Assembly (NCBI GenBank): GCA_012514775.1
Contig: JAAYZQ010000628.1
Location: forward strand, 1 to 8,930
Length of the DNA stretch: 8,930 nt
Source of the DNA: Anaerolineaceae bacterium
GTDB lineage: Bacteria; Chloroflexota; Anaerolineae; JAAYZQ01
Direction of reading: 5' to 3'
Shown here: positions 2-8,690 of the stretch, in pieces
Layout: every line of letters starts with the position of its first letter
Numbering within the stretch: position 1 is the stretch's first letter
Translations under genes and position numbers: made by a program
Notes under the pieces: generated by a model
Told to the model about the DNA's origin: nothing
Database searches by the model: none
The model's input: the letters and a program-made list of their open reading frames with translations, nothing else

Positions 2-778
2 ATGAGCCGGCCCCGCGTCCTCGTTTTGCACGCCACGGGCACCAACCGCGACCGGGAGGCGGCCTGGGCGGTGAGCGCGGCCGGCGGCGACGCCGAGATC
101 GTGCACGTCAACGCCCTGCGGGCCAACCCCGGGCGCCTGCACGCTGCTCAAATGCTCATCCTGCCCGGCGGCTTTTCCTACGGCGATAGCCTGGGCGCCG
201 GCCGCCTGTGGGCCATCGACCTGCGCTGGCTTTTTCACGATGCCCTGGCGCGGTTCATCGAGGCGGGCAAGCCCGTCCTCGGCATTTGCAACGGCTTCCA
301 GGCCCTCGTCAAGAGCGGATGGCTGCCCGGCCCGCCCGGCGACGGCGCCCGCGCCACCCTGACGCGCAACGCGTCGAACCGCTTCGAGTGTCGCTGGGTG
401 TCGCTCCGGCCCACGCCCGGCAGCCCCTGCGTCTTTACCCGCGACCTGGAGGAGAGCATCTACTGCCCCGTGGCCCACGGTGAGGGGCGCTTTGTGCCGG
501 CCGACGGCGCCGCCTTGCAGCGGCTGGTGGCCGGCAGGCAGGTGGCCCTGACCTACGTCGATGGGCACGGCCGGCCCGCGTCCTATCCCCACAATCCCAA
601 CGGCTCGGTGGCGGGCATTGCCGGCATCTGCAACGAGAAGGGCAACGTCCTGGGCCTGATGCCCCACCCCGAAGACCACGTCCACCCAACGCAACACCCG
701 TCTTGGACCCGAGGCCGGGGCGGCGGCCTGGGCCTGCCTCTCTTCCGGCGGGGCATCGACTATGCGCGGCAGTGCTAG
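2..778 (+). CDS. purQ: Phosphoribosylformylglycinamidine synthase, glutaminase subunit PurQ
   Basis: This is the class I glutamine amidotransferase subunit of FGAM synthase. It hydrolyses glutamine and passes ammonia to PurL, which converts FGAR to FGAM in the cytosol. Visible motifs are PGGFSYGD at residues 55-62 (oxyanion region), the nucleophile Cys96 in GICNGFQ, and His222 and Glu224 in MPHPED, which complete the Cys-His-Glu triad. At 258 residues it is longer than the Bacillus-type PurQ (about 227) and resembles the longer form with a C-terminal HPTQHPSWTR-type tail. The ATG at position 2 fits the usual PurQ N-terminus, a short lead into the first beta strand. That start reads ATGA, so an upstream gene could end in the overlapping TGA at 3-5; purL would be the natural candidate, but it is outside the window. 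purC follows after 25 bp. Identity is very secure; the start is likely. Confidence 0.95.
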   Translation: MSRPRVLVLHATGTNRDREAAWAVSAAGGDAEIVHVNALRANPGRLHAAQMLILPGGFSYGDSLGAGRLWAIDLRWLFHDALARFIEAGKPVLGICNGFQALVKSGWLPGPPGDGARATLTRNASNRFECRWVSLRPTPGSPCVFTRDLEESIYCPVAHGEGRFVPADGAALQRLVAGRQVALTYVDGHGRPASYPHNPNGSVAGIAGICNEKGNVLGLMPHPEDHVHPTQHPSWTRGRGGGLGLPLFRRGIDYARQC

Positions 779-788
779 GAGCGGGAAA

Positions 789-794
789 GAGGAG
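789..794 (+). promoter_or_regulatory. Ribosome binding site of purC
   Basis: GAGGAG lies 6 bases before GTG 801 and 9 bases before ATG 804. It lies downstream of the in-frame ATG at 762, which is inside purQ and has no such site, so the downstream starts are preferred. It does not by itself separate GTG 801 from ATG 804. Confidence 0.6.
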
Positions 795-803
795 CGCACC
801 GTG

Positions 804-1778
804 ATGGATGAGATGGATCGAGAGACGTGGCAGGAGTACGTCCCCCTGGCCCTGGCGGGCCTCGAGCTGGCGTGGCCCCACGAGCGGACGCGGGGCAAGG
901 TGCGCGAGATGTTCGCGCTGCCCGGCGGCCGGCGCCTCATTGTCACCACCGACCGGCTGTCGGCCTTTGACAGGGTGCTGGCCGCCGTGCCGTTCAAGGG
1001 CCAGGTGCTCAACCAGCTCAGCGCCTTCTGGTTCGAGGGCACCGCCGGGCTGATGCCCAACCACCTCCTGGCCGTGCCCGACCCCAACGTCAGCCTGGTC
1101 CGCGACTGCACGCCGCTGCCCATCGAGGTCATCGTGCGCGGTTATATCAGCGGCACCACCCACACGTCCCTCTGGTATCGCTACTCCCTGGGCGAGCGGC
1201 GCGTCTACGGCTACGATCTGCCCGACGGCCTGACCAAGAACCAGCAGCTCCCGGCCCCCATCATCACCCCCACCACCAAGGCGCGCGCCGGCGAGCACGA
1301 CGAGCGCATCGACTGCTCCGAGGTCGTGTCCCGCGGCCTCCTCGACGCCCCAACCTGGGAGCGCGTCCAGGCGGCGGCCCTGGCCCTGTTCCGCCACGGC
1401 CAGGAAGTGGCGCGCCGCGGCGGCCTCATCCTGGTCGATACCAAGTACGAGTTCGGCCGCGATGCCGGCGGCGATCTGGTGCTCATCGACGAGGTTCACA
1501 CGCCCGACAGCAGCCGCTTCTGGGTGGCCGCCAGCTACGAGGAGCGCCTGGCCGCCGGGCTGGAGCCCGAGAACCTGGACAAGGAGTTCGTCCGCCTGTG
1601 GTACGCCGAGCAGGGCTACCGCGGCGACGGCGAGCCACCCGCTCTCCCACCCGAGCTTCTCGCCCGCCTGGCCAAGCGCTACGTGAGGCTCTACGAAATG
1701 CTGACGGGCCGGGCATTTGTGCCCGCGCCCTATCCCGCCGAGCCGCGCATCGCCGCCGCGCTGCGAGGCTACCTGTAG
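804..1778 (+). CDS. purC: Phosphoribosylaminoimidazole-succinocarboxamide synthase (SAICAR synthetase) PurC
   Basis: PurC joins CAIR and aspartate, with ATP hydrolysis, to give SAICAR. From ATG 804 it is 324 residues, matching the longer, yeast Ade1-like form of about 300 residues rather than the 237-residue E. coli form. Visible family motifs are GKVREMF at 31-37 (nucleotide-binding loop), TDRLSAFD at 49-56, EVIVRGYISGT from residue 108 (substrate pocket), DTKYEFG at 212-218 and IDEVHTPDSSRFW at 228-240 (metal and nucleotide binding), followed by LDKEFVRLW. An in-frame ATG at 762 would overlap purQ by 17 bp and add 14 unconserved residues, so I prefer 804; GTG 801 is nearly equal. purE follows after 15 bp. 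No disruption is visible. Confidence 0.95.
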   Translation: MDEMDRETWQEYVPLALAGLELAWPHERTRGKVREMFALPGGRRLIVTTDRLSAFDRVLAAVPFKGQVLNQLSAFWFEGTAGLMPNHLLAVPDPNVSLVRDCTPLPIEVIVRGYISGTTHTSLWYRYSLGERRVYGYDLPDGLTKNQQLPAPIITPTTKARAGEHDERIDCSEVVSRGLLDAPTWERVQAAALALFRHGQEVARRGGLILVDTKYEFGRDAGGDLVLIDEVHTPDSSRFWVAASYEERLAAGLEPENLDKEFVRLWYAEQGYRGDGEPPALPPELLARLAKRYVRLYEMLTGRAFVPAPYPAEPRIAAALRGYL

Positions 1779-1793
1779 ACACGGGAGGGTTCG

Positions 1794-2270
1794 ATGCTGG
1801 CAGTAATTATCATGGGATCGCCCGGCGACGAGCCGGTGGCCCGGCGCGCCTCCGCCGTCCTGGACGAGTTCGGCATCCCGTGGGAGATGCGCGTCGCCTC
1901 GGCCCACAAGACGCCCGGCCACGTCCTGGCCATGCTGGAAGCGTACGAAGCGGACCCGCGCCCCAAGGTCTATGTTACCATTGCCGGGCGGAGCAACGCC
2001 CTCAGCGGCCTGGTGGACGCCCAGGTGGCCGCCCCGGTCATTGCCTGCCCGCCCTACTCCGAGGCCTTTGCCGGCGGCGACGTCCTGTCGTCACTGCGCG
2101 TGCCCTCCGGCGTCGCGCCCGCCGTCGTCCTGGAGCCGGAGGCCGCCGGCCTCCTCGCCGCCAAGATGCTCAGCCTGGCCGTGCCGTCCTTGCGCCGGGG
2201 GCTGGTCGCCGCCCGCGACACCCAGCGCCGCCGGCTGTTGGACGCCGACGCCGCCCTGCACGGCGCCTAG
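1794..2270 (+). CDS. purE: Phosphoribosylaminoimidazole carboxylase PurE, probable class II (direct CO2-using)
   Basis: This is a small 158-residue AIR carboxylase that forms CAIR. GSPGDEP at 8-14 and SAHKTP at 36-41 are the PurE phosphate and active-site loops. The centre is not the class I pattern (AGGAAHLPGM, N5-CAIR mutase). It reads AGRSN at 64-68, then CPP at 85-87, then DVLSSLRVPSG to residue 106 and VLEPEAAGLLAAKML. This closely parallels the PurE half of animal PAICS (AGRSNGLGP, SCPP, DVWSSLRLPSG, VLSPE) and class II bacterial enzymes such as that of Treponema denticola. Family knowledge says class II enzymes carboxylate AIR with CO2 and need no PurK, which fits the lack of purK here. 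The start has GGAGG at 1784-1788, spaced 5 bases. PurE identity is secure; class II is a motif-based inference. Confidence 0.93.
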   Translation: MLAVIIMGSPGDEPVARRASAVLDEFGIPWEMRVASAHKTPGHVLAMLEAYEADPRPKVYVTIAGRSNALSGLVDAQVAAPVIACPPYSEAFAGGDVLSSLRVPSGVAPAVVLEPEAAGLLAAKMLSLAVPSLRRGLVAARDTQRRRLLDADAALHGA

Positions 2271-2295: not shown

Positions 2296-3720
2296 ATGCA
2301 CGATAAGCCCCAGGAAGCATGTGGAATCTGTGGCATCTATGCCCCGGGCAACCAGGTAGCCCGCCTGGCCTTTTTCGCCCTCTATGCCCTCCAGCATCGA
2401 GGCCAGGAGAGCGCCGGCATCGCCACGTCCGACGGGCGCGTGGCCCACATTCACAAGGGACAGGGGCTCGTCTCCCTGGTGTTCAACGAGGAGAACCTGC
2501 ATCACCTGAAGGGGCACCTGGCCATCGGCCACAACCGCTACTCTACCACGGGCGCGTCGCAGCTGCGCAACGCGCAGCCCTATCTCATCGAGACCGCCCT
2601 GGGCCCGCTGGGCATCGCCCACAACGGCAACCTGACCAACGCGCCGGCCCTGCGCCGGGAGCTCCTCGACCACGGCGTCGGCCTCGTCTCCTCGTCCGAT
2701 AGTGAGGTCATCACCCAGATGCTCGCCGGCGCGCCGGGCCGAACCTGGGAGGAGCGCATTGCCGCCTTCATGGCCCAGGCCCAGGGGGCCTATTCCCTCA
2801 CCATCCTCACGCGCCATGCCGTCTATGCCGTGCGCGACCCGTGGGGCTTTCGTCCCCTGTGCCTCGGCCGGCTCGACGACGGCACCGACGGCCGCGTCGT
2901 CGCCTCCGAGTCGTGCGCCCTGGCGACCATCGGCGCCACGTTCGAGCGCGAGCTCGCCCCGGGCGAGATCGTGCGCCTCGACGAGGATGGCGTCGCGACG
3001 TGGCAGGGCGCGCCCGCCAACACGCCCGCCCTGTGCGTCTTCGAGTACATCTATTTCGCCCGCCCCGACTCGCTCCTGGAGGGCCGTTCCGTTCACCGCG
3101 TGCGCCGCCACCAGGGCGAGCGGCTGGCCCAGGAGCACCCGGTGGATGCCGACATGGTCATCGCCATCCCCGACTCGGCCATCGCCCACGCCATCGGCTA
3201 TGCCCACGAGAGCCGCATCCCCTTTGGCGAGGGGCTCATCAAGAACCGCTACATCGGCCGCACCTTTATCCAGCCCGACGACCGGCTGCGCCGCCTGGGC
3301 GTGGCCCTGAAGTTCAACCCCCTGCCCGATTCGCTCCACGGCAAGCGCATCGTCGTCGTCGACGATTCCATCGTCCGCGGTACCACCTCGGGGCCCCTCG
3401 TCGGCCTCTTGCGCCAGGCCGGCGCGGCGGAGGTTCACCTGCGCGTCGCCTCGCCGCCCATCCGGCACCCCTGCTTCATGGGCGTGGACATGGCCACGCG
3501 CGAGGAGCTCATCGCCCACCGCATGACCGTGGACGAGATCGCTCAACACGTGGGCGTCGACAGCCTCGGCTACCTGTCGCTGGAGGGACTCCTCGACGTG
3601 GTGGGCCGCGGCAACGGGCAGCATTGCCAGGCCTGTTTCACCGGCGACTATCCCGTGCCGGCTTTGGCGTGCACGGGCAAGGAGATGTTCGAGGGAAAGG
3701 GGTTAGCACCGTGCGCGTAA
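2296..3720 (+). CDS. purF: Amidophosphoribosyltransferase PurF, [4Fe-4S] type with propeptide
   Basis: PurF catalyses the committed step, PRPP plus glutamine to 5-phosphoribosylamine. The N-terminal Ntn-hydrolase glutaminase begins at Cys9 (CGICGIY) after an eight-residue leader, which is expected to be cleaved autocatalytically to expose the cysteine. RYSTTG at 81-86 and AHNGNL from 108 are glutaminase motifs. The C-terminal phosphoribosyltransferase domain carries the PRPP loop VVVDDSIVRGTTSG starting at residue 353. Cysteines at 247 (CVFEYIYFARPDS), 393 (HPCFMG), 444 and 447 (CQAC) match the four iron-sulfur ligands of the Bacillus subtilis enzyme, and the 474-residue length is close to its 476. 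E. coli PurF lacks both leader and cluster. The ATG is preceded by GGTGAG at 2285-2290. The stop lies inside the start of the purD-purM gene. Feedback control by purine nucleotides is expected from the family, not seen here. Confidence 0.96.
   Translation: MHDKPQEACGICGIYAPGNQVARLAFFALYALQHRGQESAGIATSDGRVAHIHKGQGLVSLVFNEENLHHLKGHLAIGHNRYSTTGASQLRNAQPYLIETALGPLGIAHNGNLTNAPALRRELLDHGVGLVSSSDSEVITQMLAGAPGRTWEERIAAFMAQAQGAYSLTILTRHAVYAVRDPWGFRPLCLGRLDDGTDGRVVASESCALATIGATFERELAPGEIVRLDEDGVATWQGAPANTPALCVFEYIYFARPDSLLEGRSVHRVRRHQGERLAQEHPVDADMVIAIPDSAIAHAIGYAHESRIPFGEGLIKNRYIGRTFIQPDDRLRRLGVALKFNPLPDSLHGKRIVVVDDSIVRGTTSGPLVGLLRQAGAAEVHLRVASPPIRHPCFMGVDMATREELIAHRMTVDEIAQHVGVDSLGYLSLEGLLDVVGRGNGQHCQACFTGDYPVPALACTGKEMFEGKGLAPCA
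3696..3702 (+). promoter_or_regulatory. Ribosome binding site of purD-purM, inside purF
   Basis: AAAGGGG lies 8 bases before GTG 3711, within the last codons of purF. It supports GTG 3711 over the in-frame ATG 3720, as does the protein, since only the former gives the canonical MRVMVVGSGGREHALAW opening. Confidence 0.6.
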
Positions 3721-6026
3721 TGGTGGTTGGTTCGGGAGGGCGAGAGCACGCCCTGGCCTGGGCGCTGTCCCGGTCGCCCCGGGTGGAGGCGCTCTTCCTG
3801 GCGCCGGGCAACGGTAGCACCCGGGCCCTGGCGACGAACGTGCCCGTCGACGCCGGCGACGTGGCGGGCCTCGTGGCGGTTGCCCGCCGCGAGCGCATCG
3901 ACCTGACGGTGGTGGGGCCCGAGGCGCCGCTGGTGACCGGCCTGGTCGACGCGCTGCACGCCGCCGGGCTGCGGGCCTTTGGGCCGGTGGCGGCCGCCGC
4001 CCGCCTGGAGGGCTCCAAGGCCTTTGCCAAGCGGTTCATGATCGAGGAAGGCATCCCCACGGGCGTGGGGGCCATCTTTGACGACCACGACGCGGCCCGC
4101 GCCTACCTGGCCCGGCACCCCGAGCCCCTCGTCGTCAAGGCGAGCGGCCTGGCGGCCGGCAAGGGCGTCATGGTCTGCGCCACGCGCGACGAGGCGGAAG
4201 AAGCGCTCCACCACATCATGGTCGAGCGCGCCTTTGGCGACGCCGGCGACGAGGTCCTCGTGGAAGAATGCCTGGCCGGCGAAGAGGCGTCGCTCCTGGC
4301 CTTCAGCGACGGGCGCACCGTCGTGCCGATGCTCCCCGCCCGCGACTACAAGCGGGCCGGCGAGGGCGACAGGGGGCCCAACACCGGCGGCATGGGCTGC
4401 TACGCGCCGTCGCCCCACCTCCCCCCGGCCCTCGTCGACGAGGTGCTGGCGCGGGTCCTGCAGCCCGCCGTCGACGCCATGCGCCGCCGCGGCACGCCCT
4501 ACGTGGGCGTCCTGTACGCCGGCCTGATGCTCACCGATGCCGGGCCCCGCGTCCTGGAGTTCAACTGCCGCTTTGGCGACCCGGAGACGCAGGTGCTCTT
4601 GCCCCTCCTCGAAACCGACCTGGTGGAGGTTCTTCTGGCCTGCGTCGAGGGCCGCCTGCACGCCGTGGACGTCCGCTGGAAGGAGGCCCACGCCGTCACC
4701 GTCGTCATGGCCGCCCGGGGCTATCCCGGCGCCTACGAGCGCGGCCAGGCCATCGCCGGCGTCGACGACGCCGCGACCGTCGAGGGCGCCGTCGTCTTTG
4801 GCGCGGGCACCGCCTCGGTGGATGGCCGGCTTGTGACCAACGGAGGGCGCATCCTGGCCGTAACCGCCGTCGCCCCCGACCACGCGGCCGCCCGCGAGCG
4901 GGCGTACCGCGCCGTCGACCGGATCGACTTTGCCGGGGCCCAGGTCCGGCGGGACATCGGCGCCGGCCTTTCCGTGGCGCCCGCGGCCCCTGCCGGGAAG
5001 GAACCGGCGGCCGGTGCCTACGCCGGCGCCGGCGTCGACATTGACGCCGGCAACCGCGCCGTCGCCCTCATGCGCGACGCGGTGCGCAGCACCCACACGC
5101 CGGCCGTCCTGTCCGACATCGGCCTCTTTGGCGGGCTCTTTGCCCTCCACGACGCGGTGACGACCCGCGACCCGGTGATCGTCGCCTCCACCGACAGCGT
5201 CGGCACCAAGACCATCATCGCCGCGGCCACCGGCCGCTTCGAGGGCATCGGCCAGGACCTGGTGAACCACTGCGCCAACGACGTCCTGGTGCAGGGCGCG
5301 CGGCCCCTCTTTTTCCTCGACTATTTCGCCTCGAGCAGGCTCGACCCCGAGCAGGTGGCGGCCGCTGTCGGCGGCTGCGCTGCGGCCTGCCGCGCCCTGG
5401 GCTGCGCCCTCGTCGGCGGCGAGACCGCCGAGCTGCCCGGCGTCTACCGGCCGGGCGAGTTTGACCTGGTGGGCGCCATCGTCGGCTGGGTGGAGCGCGA
5501 GGCCATCGTCGACGGGCGAGGCGTGCGCCCCGGCCACGTCTGCCTCGGGCTGCCTTCGTCGGGGCTGCACACCAACGGCTATTCCCTCGCCCGCCGGGTC
5601 CTGGGCGGCCTCGGTTGGGACACGGTGCTGCCCGATCTGGGCGAATCGCTGGCCGATTGCCTGCTGCGCCCCCACCGGGCCTACCTGCGCGAGGTCGAGG
5701 CGCTGTGGGACGCCGGGGTGGCCATCGACGCCATGGCCCACATCACCGGGGGCGGGTTCGTGGAAAACCTGCCCCGCGTCCTGCCCGCCGGCGTCGGCGT
5801 CGAGATCGACCGCGCCGCGTGGCAGGTGCCGGCGATCTTTCGCCTCATCCGGCGCCTGGGCCGCGTGAGCGACGGCGAGATGTTCCGCGTGTTCAACATG
5901 GGCATCGGCATGGTCCTTATCCTGCCGCCCGACCAGGCGCACCGGGCCCTGGCGGTTCTGCCCGAGGCCATGGTCGTCGGCCGGGCCATGGGCTGGGATG
6001 GCCATGGGTCGCGGGTTCGCATCTAG
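3711..6026 (+). CDS. purD-purM: Fused GAR synthetase (PurD) and AIR synthetase (PurM)
   Basis: This is one 771-residue ORF with two complete enzymes. Residues 1 to about 418 are PurD, an ATP-grasp ligase joining phosphoribosylamine and glycine to GAR. Its motifs are GSGGREHALAW at 7-17, GSKAFAK from 101, VVKASGLAAGKGV at 141-153, RGPNTGGMG at 221-229, and LEFNCRFGDPETQ at 282-294 with the presumed metal ligands Glu283 and Asn285; it ends in the usual RRDIG. About 18 residues of Ala, Pro and Gly form a linker. Residues 437-771 are PurM, which closes FGAM to AIR: AGVDIDAGN, TDSVGTK at 494-500, HCANDVLVQGARPLFFLDYFA, GGETAELPG at 569-577, and HITGGGFVENLPR. The lengths match stand-alone PurD (about 430) and PurM (about 345). 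The linker holds no stop and only one in-frame GTG (4974), without a ribosome binding site. The gene starts 10 bp inside purF, suggesting translational coupling. Ser496 replaces the usual Gly in TDGVGTK. Confidence 0.95.
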   Translation: MRVMVVGSGGREHALAWALSRSPRVEALFLAPGNGSTRALATNVPVDAGDVAGLVAVARRERIDLTVVGPEAPLVTGLVDALHAAGLRAFGPVAAAARLEGSKAFAKRFMIEEGIPTGVGAIFDDHDAARAYLARHPEPLVVKASGLAAGKGVMVCATRDEAEEALHHIMVERAFGDAGDEVLVEECLAGEEASLLAFSDGRTVVPMLPARDYKRAGEGDRGPNTGGMGCYAPSPHLPPALVDEVLARVLQPAVDAMRRRGTPYVGVLYAGLMLTDAGPRVLEFNCRFGDPETQVLLPLLETDLVEVLLACVEGRLHAVDVRWKEAHAVTVVMAARGYPGAYERGQAIAGVDDAATVEGAVVFGAGTASVDGRLVTNGGRILAVTAVAPDHAAARERAYRAVDRIDFAGAQVRRDIGAGLSVAPAAPAGKEPAAGAYAGAGVDIDAGNRAVALMRDAVRSTHTPAVLSDIGLFGGLFALHDAVTTRDPVIVASTDSVGTKTIIAAATGRFEGIGQDLVNHCANDVLVQGARPLFFLDYFASSRLDPEQVAAAVGGCAAACRALGCALVGGETAELPGVYRPGEFDLVGAIVGWVEREAIVDGRGVRPGHVCLGLPSSGLHTNGYSLARRVLGGLGWDTVLPDLGESLADCLLRPHRAYLREVEALWDAGVAIDAMAHITGGGFVENLPRVLPAGVGVEIDRAAWQVPAIFRLIRRLGRVSDGEMFRVFNMGIGMVLILPPDQAHRALAVLPEAMVVGRAMGWDGHGSRVRI

Positions 6027-6071: not shown

Positions 6072-6701
6072 ATGACGCGCATCGCGATCCTGGTTTCCGG
6101 CTTTGGCTCCAACCAGCAGGCCATCCTCGACGCCGTCGAGGCGGGAGGCCTGCCCGGCGTCGAGGTGGCCCTCGTCGTCTCGAACCGCAGAAACGCCCGC
6201 GGCATCGACCGCGCCATCCACCACGGCGTGCCCGTAGTCTATTTTCCGCTGGCGCCCTACACCCGGGCCGGGCAGTCACGCGACGCCTACGACGCCCGCC
6301 TGGCGCGCATCCTGCAGGCCTTCGAGGTCCAATGGGTGGTCCTGGCCGGCTGGATGCACGTCCTGGGCGCCGCGTTCCTGGACCACTTTCCGGCCCGCGT
6401 CGTCAACCTCCACCCGGCGCTGCCCGGGACCTTTCCCGGCACCCACGCCATCCGGCGCGCCTACGACGCCTACCGCCGCGGCGAGATCGAGGGCACCGGC
6501 GTGATGGTGCACCTGGTGCCCGACCCGGCCGTGGACGCCGGCCCCGTCGTCGCCCAGAGGGCGGTGCCCATCCAGCCCGGCGACACCGTCGACGACCTGG
6601 AGGCGCGCATCCACGCCGTGGAGCACGAGCTGCTGGTGGCGGCGCTCCACGACCTGCTGTGCGGCGTTTCGGCCGGCGATGGCGGGCCGGCCGGAGCATA
6701 A
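6072..6701 (+). CDS. purN: Phosphoribosylglycinamide formyltransferase PurN (10-formyltetrahydrofolate-dependent)
   Basis: PurN transfers the formyl group of 10-formyl-tetrahydrofolate to GAR, giving FGAR. The 209 residues match the family (E. coli 212). SGFGSN at 9-14 is the phosphate-binding loop. The catalytic triad is visible as Asn112 and His114 in VVNLHPALPG and Asp155 in VDAGPVV, equivalent to Asn106, His108 and Asp144 of E. coli. GTGVMVHLVPD lies between them, as expected. The folate-binding strand reads VVLAGWMHVLG where LAGFMRIL is usual. The last dozen residues are Gly/Ala-rich and probably disordered. The gene lies 45 bp after purD-purM in the same frame, with one intervening TAG and no other stop. 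The IMP cyclohydrolase gene follows after 32 bp. Confidence 0.95.
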   Translation: MTRIAILVSGFGSNQQAILDAVEAGGLPGVEVALVVSNRRNARGIDRAIHHGVPVVYFPLAPYTRAGQSRDAYDARLARILQAFEVQWVVLAGWMHVLGAAFLDHFPARVVNLHPALPGTFPGTHAIRRAYDAYRRGEIEGTGVMVHLVPDPAVDAGPVVAQRAVPIQPGDTVDDLEARIHAVEHELLVAALHDLLCGVSAGDGGPAGA

Positions 6702-6733: not shown

Positions 6734-7426
6734 GTGACCAAGAATGTTGTCGAGCGAGTCGACGATTGGGTGAGGATCCGGCACGTGCTGGTGAGCGTTT
6801 CGGACAAGACGGGGCTCGACGCCCTGGTGCCGGCGCTGGTCGAGGTCAACCCCGACGTTCGCCTGTACTCGACGGGCGGCACCTACCGGCACCTCGCCGA
6901 GATCCTGGGCCCGGCCGGCGCGGCGCGCCACCTGCAGCAGGTATCCGACTACACGGGGCAGCCCGAGACCCAGGGTGGGCTCGTCAAGACGCTGGATTTC
7001 AGGATCTACCTGGGGCTGCTCACCGAGACCTACAACGACGCCCACCAGGGCGACCTGGCCCGCACGGGGGCGGTGCCCCTCGACATGGTTGTCTGCAACC
7101 TCTACCCCTTTGCGGAGACCGTGGCGCGGGAGGGGGTGACGGTCGAGGAGGCGCGGGCCAACGTCGACATCGGCGGGCCGTGCATGATCCGCGCCGCGGC
7201 CAAGAACTATTTGCGGGTCGCGGCCGTGGTCGAGCCGGCGGACTACCAGGGCATCGCCGGCTTCCTGCGGGCCCACGGCGGAGCGCTGAACCTCAGCCTG
7301 CGTTTCGCCCTGGCAGCCAAGGCTTTTGCCCACACCGCCGCCTACGACACCGCCATCAGCCACTACTTTGGCCGGCAAGAGCCCGGCGCTGTGCCGGTGG
7401 CCTATACCCTGGCAAACGGAGAGTGA
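6734..7426 (+). CDS. purH: IMP cyclohydrolase, stand-alone N-terminal half of PurH
   Basis: This 230-residue protein matches only the MGS-fold cyclohydrolase domain of PurH, which closes FAICAR to IMP, the last step of the pathway. Visible motifs are VLVSVSDKTGL at 18-28, YSTGGT at 45-50, NLYPF at 122-126, VDIGG at 144-148 and RAAAKNY at 153-159. Tyr124, Asp145 and Lys157 correspond to active-site residues of human ATIC (Tyr104, Asp125, Lys137). The usual GRVKTLHP segment is instead GGLVKTLDFRIYLG at 81-94; Lys85 is kept but His-Pro becomes Asp-Phe. The protein ends soon after AKAFAHTAAYDTAISHYF, the normal domain boundary. The GTG start has GAGGG at 6722-6726, spaced 7 bases. It is in a different frame from the transformylase gene 13 bp downstream, and clean ends on both proteins favour a genuine split over a recent frameshift. 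Confidence 0.92.
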   Translation: MTKNVVERVDDWVRIRHVLVSVSDKTGLDALVPALVEVNPDVRLYSTGGTYRHLAEILGPAGAARHLQQVSDYTGQPETQGGLVKTLDFRIYLGLLTETYNDAHQGDLARTGAVPLDMVVCNLYPFAETVAREGVTVEEARANVDIGGPCMIRAAAKNYLRVAAVVEPADYQGIAGFLRAHGGALNLSLRFALAAKAFAHTAAYDTAISHYFGRQEPGAVPVAYTLANGE

Positions 7427-7439: not shown

Positions 7440-8690
7440 ATGTCTCCAGATCTGAAGCAGGCGTACCGCACCATGGCCGGCGATCCGTTTCCCGATCGCA
7501 TGGAGATCGCCTTCGTGTGGGATGACACGCGATCAACCCTCGTGTACGAGAAGGTGTCGTGGGTCGTCGACGGCGAGCGGCGGGGGCTGCGCTATGGCGA
7601 GAACCCGGGCCAGCCGGCGGCCCTCTACAAGCTGGTCAACGGCAACCTGGTGCTGGGCGAGGTGGAGACCATCGCCCCTGGCCGCTACCTCGTCTCCGAC
7701 GTCGAGCTGCTCCAGTCGGGCAAGCACCCGGGCAAGATCAACATGACCGACGCCGACAACGCGCTGAACATCCTGCGCTTCCTGGGCGAGGGGCCGGCGG
7801 CGGCCATCATGAAGCACAACAATCCCTCGGGGGTGGCCCTGGGCGACAGCCTGGTGGAGGCCTACCTGAAGGCCGACCTGGCCGACCACGTGGCCGCCTT
7901 TGGCGGCTGCATCGCCCTCAACCGCCCGGTGGACGTGGCCACCGCCGAAGCCATCGCGGCCCGCTACGCCGAGGTCGTGGTGGCGCCCGAGTACGAGGCC
8001 GGCGCCGTCGAGATCCTGGCCCGGCGCCAGAACCTGCGCATCATGCGCGTGGGCAACATGGCGCGCCTGTCCGAGTTCGCCGCCGAGCGGTTCGTAGATC
8101 TGAAAAGCCTGGTCGACGGGGCCGTCATCGCCCAGCTCTCCTACCTGCCCCAGGTGCGCACCCCCGCCGACCTGAAGCCCGCCGAGACGCTTCACGGCGG
8201 CCGCACCTATCGCATCCAGCGGCCACCGGCAGAGCGCGAGGTGCAGGACATGCTCTTCGGCTGGCTGGTGGAAGCCGGCGTCACCTCCAACTCGGTTATT
8301 TATGTCAAAGACCGGGCCACGGTGGGCATCGGCACCGGCGAGCAGGACCGGGTCGGCGTGGCCGAGATCGCCCGCGACAAGGCCTACCGCAAGCTGGCCG
8401 ACAGGCTGGCCTTCGAGCGGCACGGCGTGATCTACAGCTCGCTGGCCGACGAGGCAGCCCGCCGCGCCATCGACGCCGAGGTGGCCGCGGAGCACGGCGG
8501 CCTGCGCGGCGCCGTCATGGTCTCCGACGCCTTCTTCCCCTTCCGCGACGGCGTGGAGGTCGGCCTGAAAGAGGGCGTCACCGCCGTCATCCAGCCCGGC
8601 GGCGCGCTGAACGATCACCAGGTCATCGAGGCCTGCAACGAGGCCGGGGCCACGATGGTCTTTACCGGGGAGCGGAGCTTCAAGCACTAG
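7440..8690 (+). CDS. purH: AICAR transformylase, stand-alone C-terminal half of PurH
   Basis: This 416-residue protein matches the formyltransferase domain of PurH, which uses 10-formyl-tetrahydrofolate to convert AICAR to FAICAR. Visible motifs are [14 protein letters not shown] with Arg51 to Gln58, [13 protein letters not shown] with the catalytic Lys125-His126 pair (human Lys266-His267), [39 protein letters not shown], and the C-terminal [30 protein letters not shown]. Before RYGENP there is an N-terminal segment of about 50 residues ([17 protein letters not shown], then VYEKVSW) that fused PurH lacks. I recall this segment in stand-alone transformylases such as those of Desulfovibrio, so it marks a subfamily that evolved as a separate protein. 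It is the last gene of the operon on this strand. Identity is very secure. Confidence 0.94.

Follow-up and report, generated by a model that had tools for sequence, protein, structure and literature searches.

A PurD-PurM fusion in an Anaerolineaceae bacterium, probably derived from neighboring purine operon genes

Introduction

PurD (glycinamide ribonucleotide [GAR] synthetase) and PurM (aminoimidazole ribonucleotide [AIR] synthetase, a dimer) catalyze steps 2 and 5 of purine synthesis, which are not consecutive. Two eukaryotic systems join them: yeast Ade5,7, a single chain of about 800 residues with PurD ahead of PurM, and the animal trifunctional GART (GARS-AIRS-GART), of which they form the first two domains. 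A 2024 review treats PurD, PurN, and PurM of bacteria as three separate enzymes and assigns the joined form to vertebrates (PMC10912719). The adjacent but separate genes of Chloroflexota and Acidimicrobiales lie in the order purF-purD-purM, often followed by purN, with a stop between purD and purM and, in the three in-frame cases examined, a Shine-Dalgarno-like sequence as well. Here we analyze purDM, a gene in an 8,930-nucleotide stretch from an Anaerolineaceae bacterium of the Chloroflexota (contig JAAYZQ010000628.1 of assembly GCA_012514775.1; hereafter, the window), which keeps the gene order of these relatives and holds PurD and PurM in one open frame. Sequence comparisons argue strongly that it encodes one bifunctional enzyme that arose by loss of the stop between neighboring operon genes.

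Results

As the original prediction had it, purDM is one uninterrupted 771-codon frame with a full PurD and a full PurM (coordinates in Table 1), and both halves pass the curated NCBIfam cut-offs: TIGR00877 purD matches at 527.2 bits (cut-off, 288) over model positions 1-421 of 425, and TIGR00878 purM at 354.1 bits (cut-off, 236.35) over positions 2-323 of 332. Pfam GARS_N, GARS_A, GARS_C, AIRS, and AIRS_C are each found over their cut-offs, and the protein has the Ade5,7-type architecture of two full domains, PurD N-terminal, in a single open frame.

A homologue search passed 7,992 proteins, with only the 7,994 candidates that shared most words being scored; the best 120 were examined, a set biased toward fused proteins because the query is itself fused. 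All 120 hold PurD and PurM in one protein, and many, which belong to the same family as the window protein, bear the Joint Genome Institute (JGI) name “phosphoribosylamine--glycine ligase/phosphoribosylformylglycinamidine cyclo-ligase,” a double name that looks automatic. The closest are P0002, 97% identical and from an Anaerolineae (Chloroflexota) bacterium, and P0003 (91%), whose linkers differ. Measured between the equivalents of window residues 417 and 436, the linkers of the 120 are 5 to 75 residues long (median, 19), and those printed have no evident sequence in common. Judged from these sequences, the join is confirmed as real, with chance and assembly error excluded, since independent relatives, including P0002 and P0003 and a further 118 of the best 120, carry it. 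That an assembly or sequencing error erased a stop between two genes is in our estimate a negligible prospect; the two halves also lie in the same frame and have an equal third-position G+C of 0.93. What could be said for such an error is that this value falls to 0.76 in the 51-base linker and that three genomes near the window clade (L161, L162, and L163) show just a single half at the locus found.

Among the wider set of loci, the linkers of L140, L141, L149, and L161 contain repeat-like peptides (e.g., ESANQRI and NPKSKIQN), perhaps intergenic repeats that have come to be translated. L161 is the same gene as L151, and its repeat-like stretch lies ahead of a stand-alone PurM.

The catalytic signatures of both enzymes are present. 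The PurD motif R[LF]GDPEx[EQIM], given as PS00184 in a published source (PMC3261824), appears as RFGDPETQ, and in an alignment of the window protein with 60 of the best 120 fused homologues it is invariant except for T293. The same source names Asp65, Asp94, His190, and His247 as the active-site residues of Escherichia coli PurM (PMC3261824); by hand-counted alignment to 1cli these correspond to Asp495, Asp524, His620, and His677 of purDM, all invariant in the same alignment. In the predicted structure (mean predicted local distance difference test [pLDDT] score, 87.7; predicted template modeling [pTM] score, 0.57), each half is folded with confidence, linker residues 421-435 have a pLDDT below 50, and the mutual arrangement of the halves, including any interface, is without confidence. 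On this model the linker is probably a short, flexible tether.

The original prediction had described about 18 Ala/Pro/Gly-rich residues between the halves and no ribosome binding site for PurM. The composition stands, with Ala, Pro, or Gly at 12 of the residues, but the length is 17 (residues 419-435), and the linker does hold a purine-rich, Shine-Dalgarno-like GGGAAGGAA at 4995-5003, which has no start codon close downstream: the next in-frame ATG, at 5070, is within the PurM domain, and upstream of the stretch there is an in-frame GTG at 4974. This stretch may be a relic of the Shine-Dalgarno-like sequence of a former purM. Its presence, and a linker predicted with the low confidence seen in disordered stretches, would suit a gene from which two proteins are made, either by internal initiation or by cutting of the linker. 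We consider this improbable in view of the position of the next start, and a separate PurM from an internal start was rejected for want of a suitable codon.

Unfused relatives offer a ready route to the single chain. In many Chloroflexota and acidimicrobial relatives with separate genes, purM directly follows purD on the same strand; a gap of 661 to 852 bases separates them in L094, L105, L109, L119, and L120, and purM lies elsewhere in others. At L083, L084, and L085, purD and purM are in the same frame with a single stop between them and a Shine-Dalgarno-like sequence in the spacer. The starting state would have been such an in-frame adjacent pair within a purF-purD-purM-purN row; loss of the stop codon would have created a single frame and turned the former spacer into the linker, giving a complete GAR synthetase and a complete AIR synthetase tethered by a short linker. 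Both halves would be active, the full-length chain would be the main product, and the fused protein would presumably dimerize through its PurM half. Its immediate gain would lie in co-location and an output fixed at 1:1, and not in channeling between consecutive steps. We favor operon adjacency and stop loss as the cause because the two enzymes act at nonconsecutive steps (2 and 5), the linkers are unconserved, and other pur pairs are fused in the Chloroflexota sample described below. Those pairs are, like purDM, pur genes joined in frame, with other partners: PurQ-PurM in three genomes (L116, L117, and L118; 644 to 656 amino acids), PurD-PurN in one (L122; 757 amino acids), and PurD-PurE in one (L134; 593 amino acids). 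At L119 (4675-6315), the PurM frame also holds a match to the PDDEXK_3 nuclease family (residues 26-139) ahead of PurM, which could be another fusion or a sequence inserted between the purD and purM genes.

Fused genomes, grouped as the search tool assigns them, were called from stop-to-stop frames of fetched loci, except for G521 of the acidimicrobial order, called by its search row alone. The frame length reported by the search was not relied on, as G075 was given 977 amino acids though a stop separates its genes. Of 48 genomes searched in the nearest order, that of the genome of L001, 19 had any match and 13 had both halves in one frame; wherever genomes of this order possess the genes, fusion is the usual state. 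The remaining six comprise two with PurD and no close PurM (G416 and G418, with only a 33% PurM-like match elsewhere), one with PurM alone (G437), two cut by a contig end (G448 and G454), and one spurious match (G443). Counts outside this order are lower bounds, because frames were checked only at fetched loci and a fusion that the search reports in pieces (as it did for G434) would be missed. In a sample of 400 genomes from the phylum Chloroflexota (that of the genome of L002; two candidates scored in each), 366 had a match and at least 5 were fused: G002, G371 (up to the contig end), G184, G256, and G208 (frame broken inside PurD). The acidimicrobial order to which the genome of L007 (Acidimicrobiaceae) belongs yielded at least 7 fusions, 6 of them frame-checked, among 99 genomes, 96 with a match. 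The expectation that bacterial purD and purM are normally separate found support in two other phyla, those of the genomes of L046 (Clostridia; 149 genomes, 148 with a match) and L080 (Pantoea; 200 genomes, 197 with a match), where no full-length fused row occurred among the matches listed. Omnitrophota (L029) was rejected as a further fused lineage, its genes being separate and in the order purM-purD, and G099, G287, and G219, which had given full-length search rows, were rejected after the frame check placed a stop between the genes.

In the nearest order, neither PurD nor PurM was matched in 29 of the 48 genomes, and another had only the spurious match; PurF matched strongly (E below 1e-100) in 17 of the 48 and in none of these 30. 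Purine synthesis seems from these searches to have been lost in much of the order, for genomes whose completeness was not given.

To place both halves, careful maximum-likelihood trees were built from those of 77 named rows that covered enough of the half concerned, 74 for PurD and 64 for PurM, including three yeasts and six animals. Besides the window they used nine of the best 120 homologues, and background rows came from the matches listed in a scan for window-like DNA, which is not an even sample of bacteria. Five fused loci stood outside the trees: L086 and L125 (contig end), L089 and L128 (frame break), and L146 (partial). Placing all bacterial fusions in one clade was rejected by the approximately unbiased (AU) test for PurM (p = 1.67e-06) and for PurD (p = 5.5e-78 as printed), values that are somewhat too strong because the groups were chosen after earlier trees had been seen. 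The smaller grouping of the window clade with L002 to L004 alone was rejected by the PurM half (p = 0.009). In both trees L002 to L004 fell among the unfused L008, L083, L084, and L129, and L005 and L006 fell, not paired, among the unfused L016 and its kin; the acidimicrobial fused set included L087, from the Chloroflexota sample, and the unfused L179. By these trees, several origins of the bacterial fusion with some reversals are likely. This is not the sole reading, since change counts do not separate gains from losses.

Two of the loci above deserve separate mention. L087 and L088 (genomes G184 and G256 of the Chloroflexota sample) both encode a PurDM of 775 amino acids, and L087, which was the one used for the trees, falls with the fused acidimicrobial proteins; either gene transfer or misplaced contigs would account for this. 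L161 (PurM alone) and L162 and L163 (PurD alone) had no partner found close by, nor a good match to one in the rest of the genome, and their single halves may reflect re-splitting, loss, or assembly gaps.

Several points weigh against a single bifunctional enzyme that arose by stop loss. The fused label requires 8 (PurD) and 7 (PurM) changes among bacteria, and the direction, fusion or fission, is not fixed by them. Nested among fused members are some with separate genes: in the window clade, L162 and L163 (PurD tree) and L161 (PurM tree), and in the acidimicrobial set, L179. The PurM motif of the window reads TDSVGTK instead of the usual TDGVGTK, a change that could affect activity. Finally, the low pTM of the predicted model may be due to its alignment of 61 sequences and not to true flexibility.

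A common origin with the eukaryotic Ade5,7 and GART fusions, by descent or by transfer between Chloroflexota and eukaryotes, was weighed against these trees. The yeasts and animals fall together in a single clade (support, 98/93 for PurM and 78/50 for PurD) that lies outside the window clade in both. In the PurM tree, the eukaryotes share a clade with one Omnitrophota sequence, placed among Bacillota and split from the window group by a 100/100 branch, and a clade of the window group with eukaryotes was rejected (AU p = 8.63e-05). The PurD half is less decisive: there the same grouping was not rejected (AU p = 0.0645), and the eukaryotes stand next to two rows of Caldilineaceae (Chloroflexota) whose PurD is separate, a weakly supported position (83/89). 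Earlier quick trees, with five vertebrates as the sole eukaryotes and with L032 (long branch) and L135 (duplicate) dropped in the tests, gave p values of 0.0018 (PurM) and 0.753 (PurD) for the window clade with vertebrates; the quick PurD tree was unreliable, its held-together tree outscoring the free one, and both trees were redone carefully. Further points for common origin are the identical domain order, a purN directly behind purDM as in animal GART, the neighboring purC and class II-like purE (compare the domains of animal PAICS), and the best Protein Data Bank (PDB) match of the whole purDM, which is the GARS part of GART (2qk4, 424.3 bits; next, 418.1). Set against the PurM results and linkers that are unrelated, they leave a common origin of the bacterial and eukaryotic joins unlikely, in our judgment a long shot, and the proposal of an independent parallel to the eukaryotic fusion looks right, with the PurM half carrying the rejection.

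In detail, yeast Ade5,7 pairs the two enzymes in a single chain in the order seen here, and P0242 has the same five Pfam domains; the three yeast proteins aligned share 42 to 44% identity with the window protein and differ in the linker, and a separate origin of the two joins is most likely. Animal GART likewise shares its first two domains, in order, whereas the window purN, directly downstream, is a separate frame.

The genes around purDM are ordered purQ-purC-purE-purF-purDM-purN, and behind them comes a purH that is divided into two genes, with spacings from a 17-base overlap to a 45-base gap (Table 1). PurE had as its top PDB matches 3rg8 (148 bits) and 5c5d (146 bits), which we take to be the class II PurE enzyme of Treponema; next came two 425-residue PAICS-type chains, 2h31 (92 bits) and 4ja0 (81 bits), and then 2ywx (71 bits). 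By these matches the window PurE is class II-like, a putative direct AIR carboxylase. The purK family had no match in the eight window frames scanned. purE adjoins purC, its fusion partner in animal PAICS. The same purH split occurs in L168 (67% and 72% identical), and both purH halves are in one frame in L005, L006, and L169; bifunctional PurH is described as almost uniform outside archaea (PMC6797443).

Table 1. Features of the window around purDM
Feature	Position	Strand	Description
purQ	2..778	+	Upstream, same gene row; family matches
purC	762..1778	+	Upstream, same gene row; start codon uncertain, best family match from residue 39
purE, class II-like	1794..2270	+	Family and PDB matches
purF	2296..3720	+	Overlaps the purDM start by 10 bases
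Shine-Dalgarno-like GAGGGAAAGGGG	3691..3702	+	Purine-rich; ahead of the purDM GTG start; spotted by eye
purDM (fused GAR synthetase PurD-AIR synthetase PurM)	3711..6026	+	GTG to stop, 771 residues, no internal stop
PurD half	3711..4964	+	Residues 1-418, TIGR00877 match; RFGDPETQ at residues 287-294
Linker	4965..5015	+	Residues 419-435, 17 residues, Ala/Pro/Gly-rich; holds GGGAAGGAA
PurM half	5016..6026	+	Residues 436-771, TIGR00878 match (residues 436-757); Asp495, Asp524, His620, His677
purN	6072..6701	+	Own gene, directly downstream of purDM
Inosine monophosphate cyclohydrolase half of split purH	6734..7426	+	Family matches
Aminoimidazole carboxamide ribonucleotide formyltransferase half of split purH	7440..8690	+	Own ATG, Shine-Dalgarno-like GAGGGGAGGGG just upstream

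Discussion

Why the same two genes should be joined more than once invites an explanation by selection for a purine-synthesizing complex, in which tethering makes the pathway faster or shields unstable intermediates, hence repeated fusion. PurD and PurM are joined not only in yeasts and animals but also in several groups of bacteria, and one study places PurD, PurM, PurK, and PurT at the core of an interaction cluster in E. coli (PMC12583656), so that tethering could help. In contrast, the linkers vary in length with no evident shared sequence, the predicted model offers no confident interface, members with separate genes are nested in the fused clade, the two steps are not consecutive, and the PurQ-PurM, PurD-PurN, and PurD-PurE fusions fit adjacency equally well. 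We regard selection for a complex as possible and rather doubtful, and the role in assembling such a complex that had been suggested for purDM found no support: the linker is variable, and the model (pTM, 0.57) gives no confident arrangement of the halves. Slightly more tentative still is the proposal that PurD and PurM form a favored pairing, tethered independently on three or more occasions in bacteria and one further time in eukaryotes for a metabolon benefit, with some joins later undone. If it were true, Chloroflexota would offer fused, one-stop-away, and re-split versions together for a direct test.

The fusion is in part familiar. The Ade5,7 architecture is known already, as is the double name in public JGI records, and the original prediction had allowed that a survey might find the fusion commonplace in its clade and already described. 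Commonplace it is in the nearest order (13 of 19); as for a description, no paper on a bacterial PurD-PurM fusion was found in the literature searched, which was covered by titles and abstract openings, with most subscription journals outside it.

The enzymes themselves are ordinary, and the interest of purDM is therefore evolutionary and not biochemical. A joined form that is standard in one bacterial group and present in a second, with unfused relatives one stop away, is a bacterial counterpart of Ade5,7 and GART and provides a natural series for asking whether linking nonconsecutive enzymes of a pathway pays.

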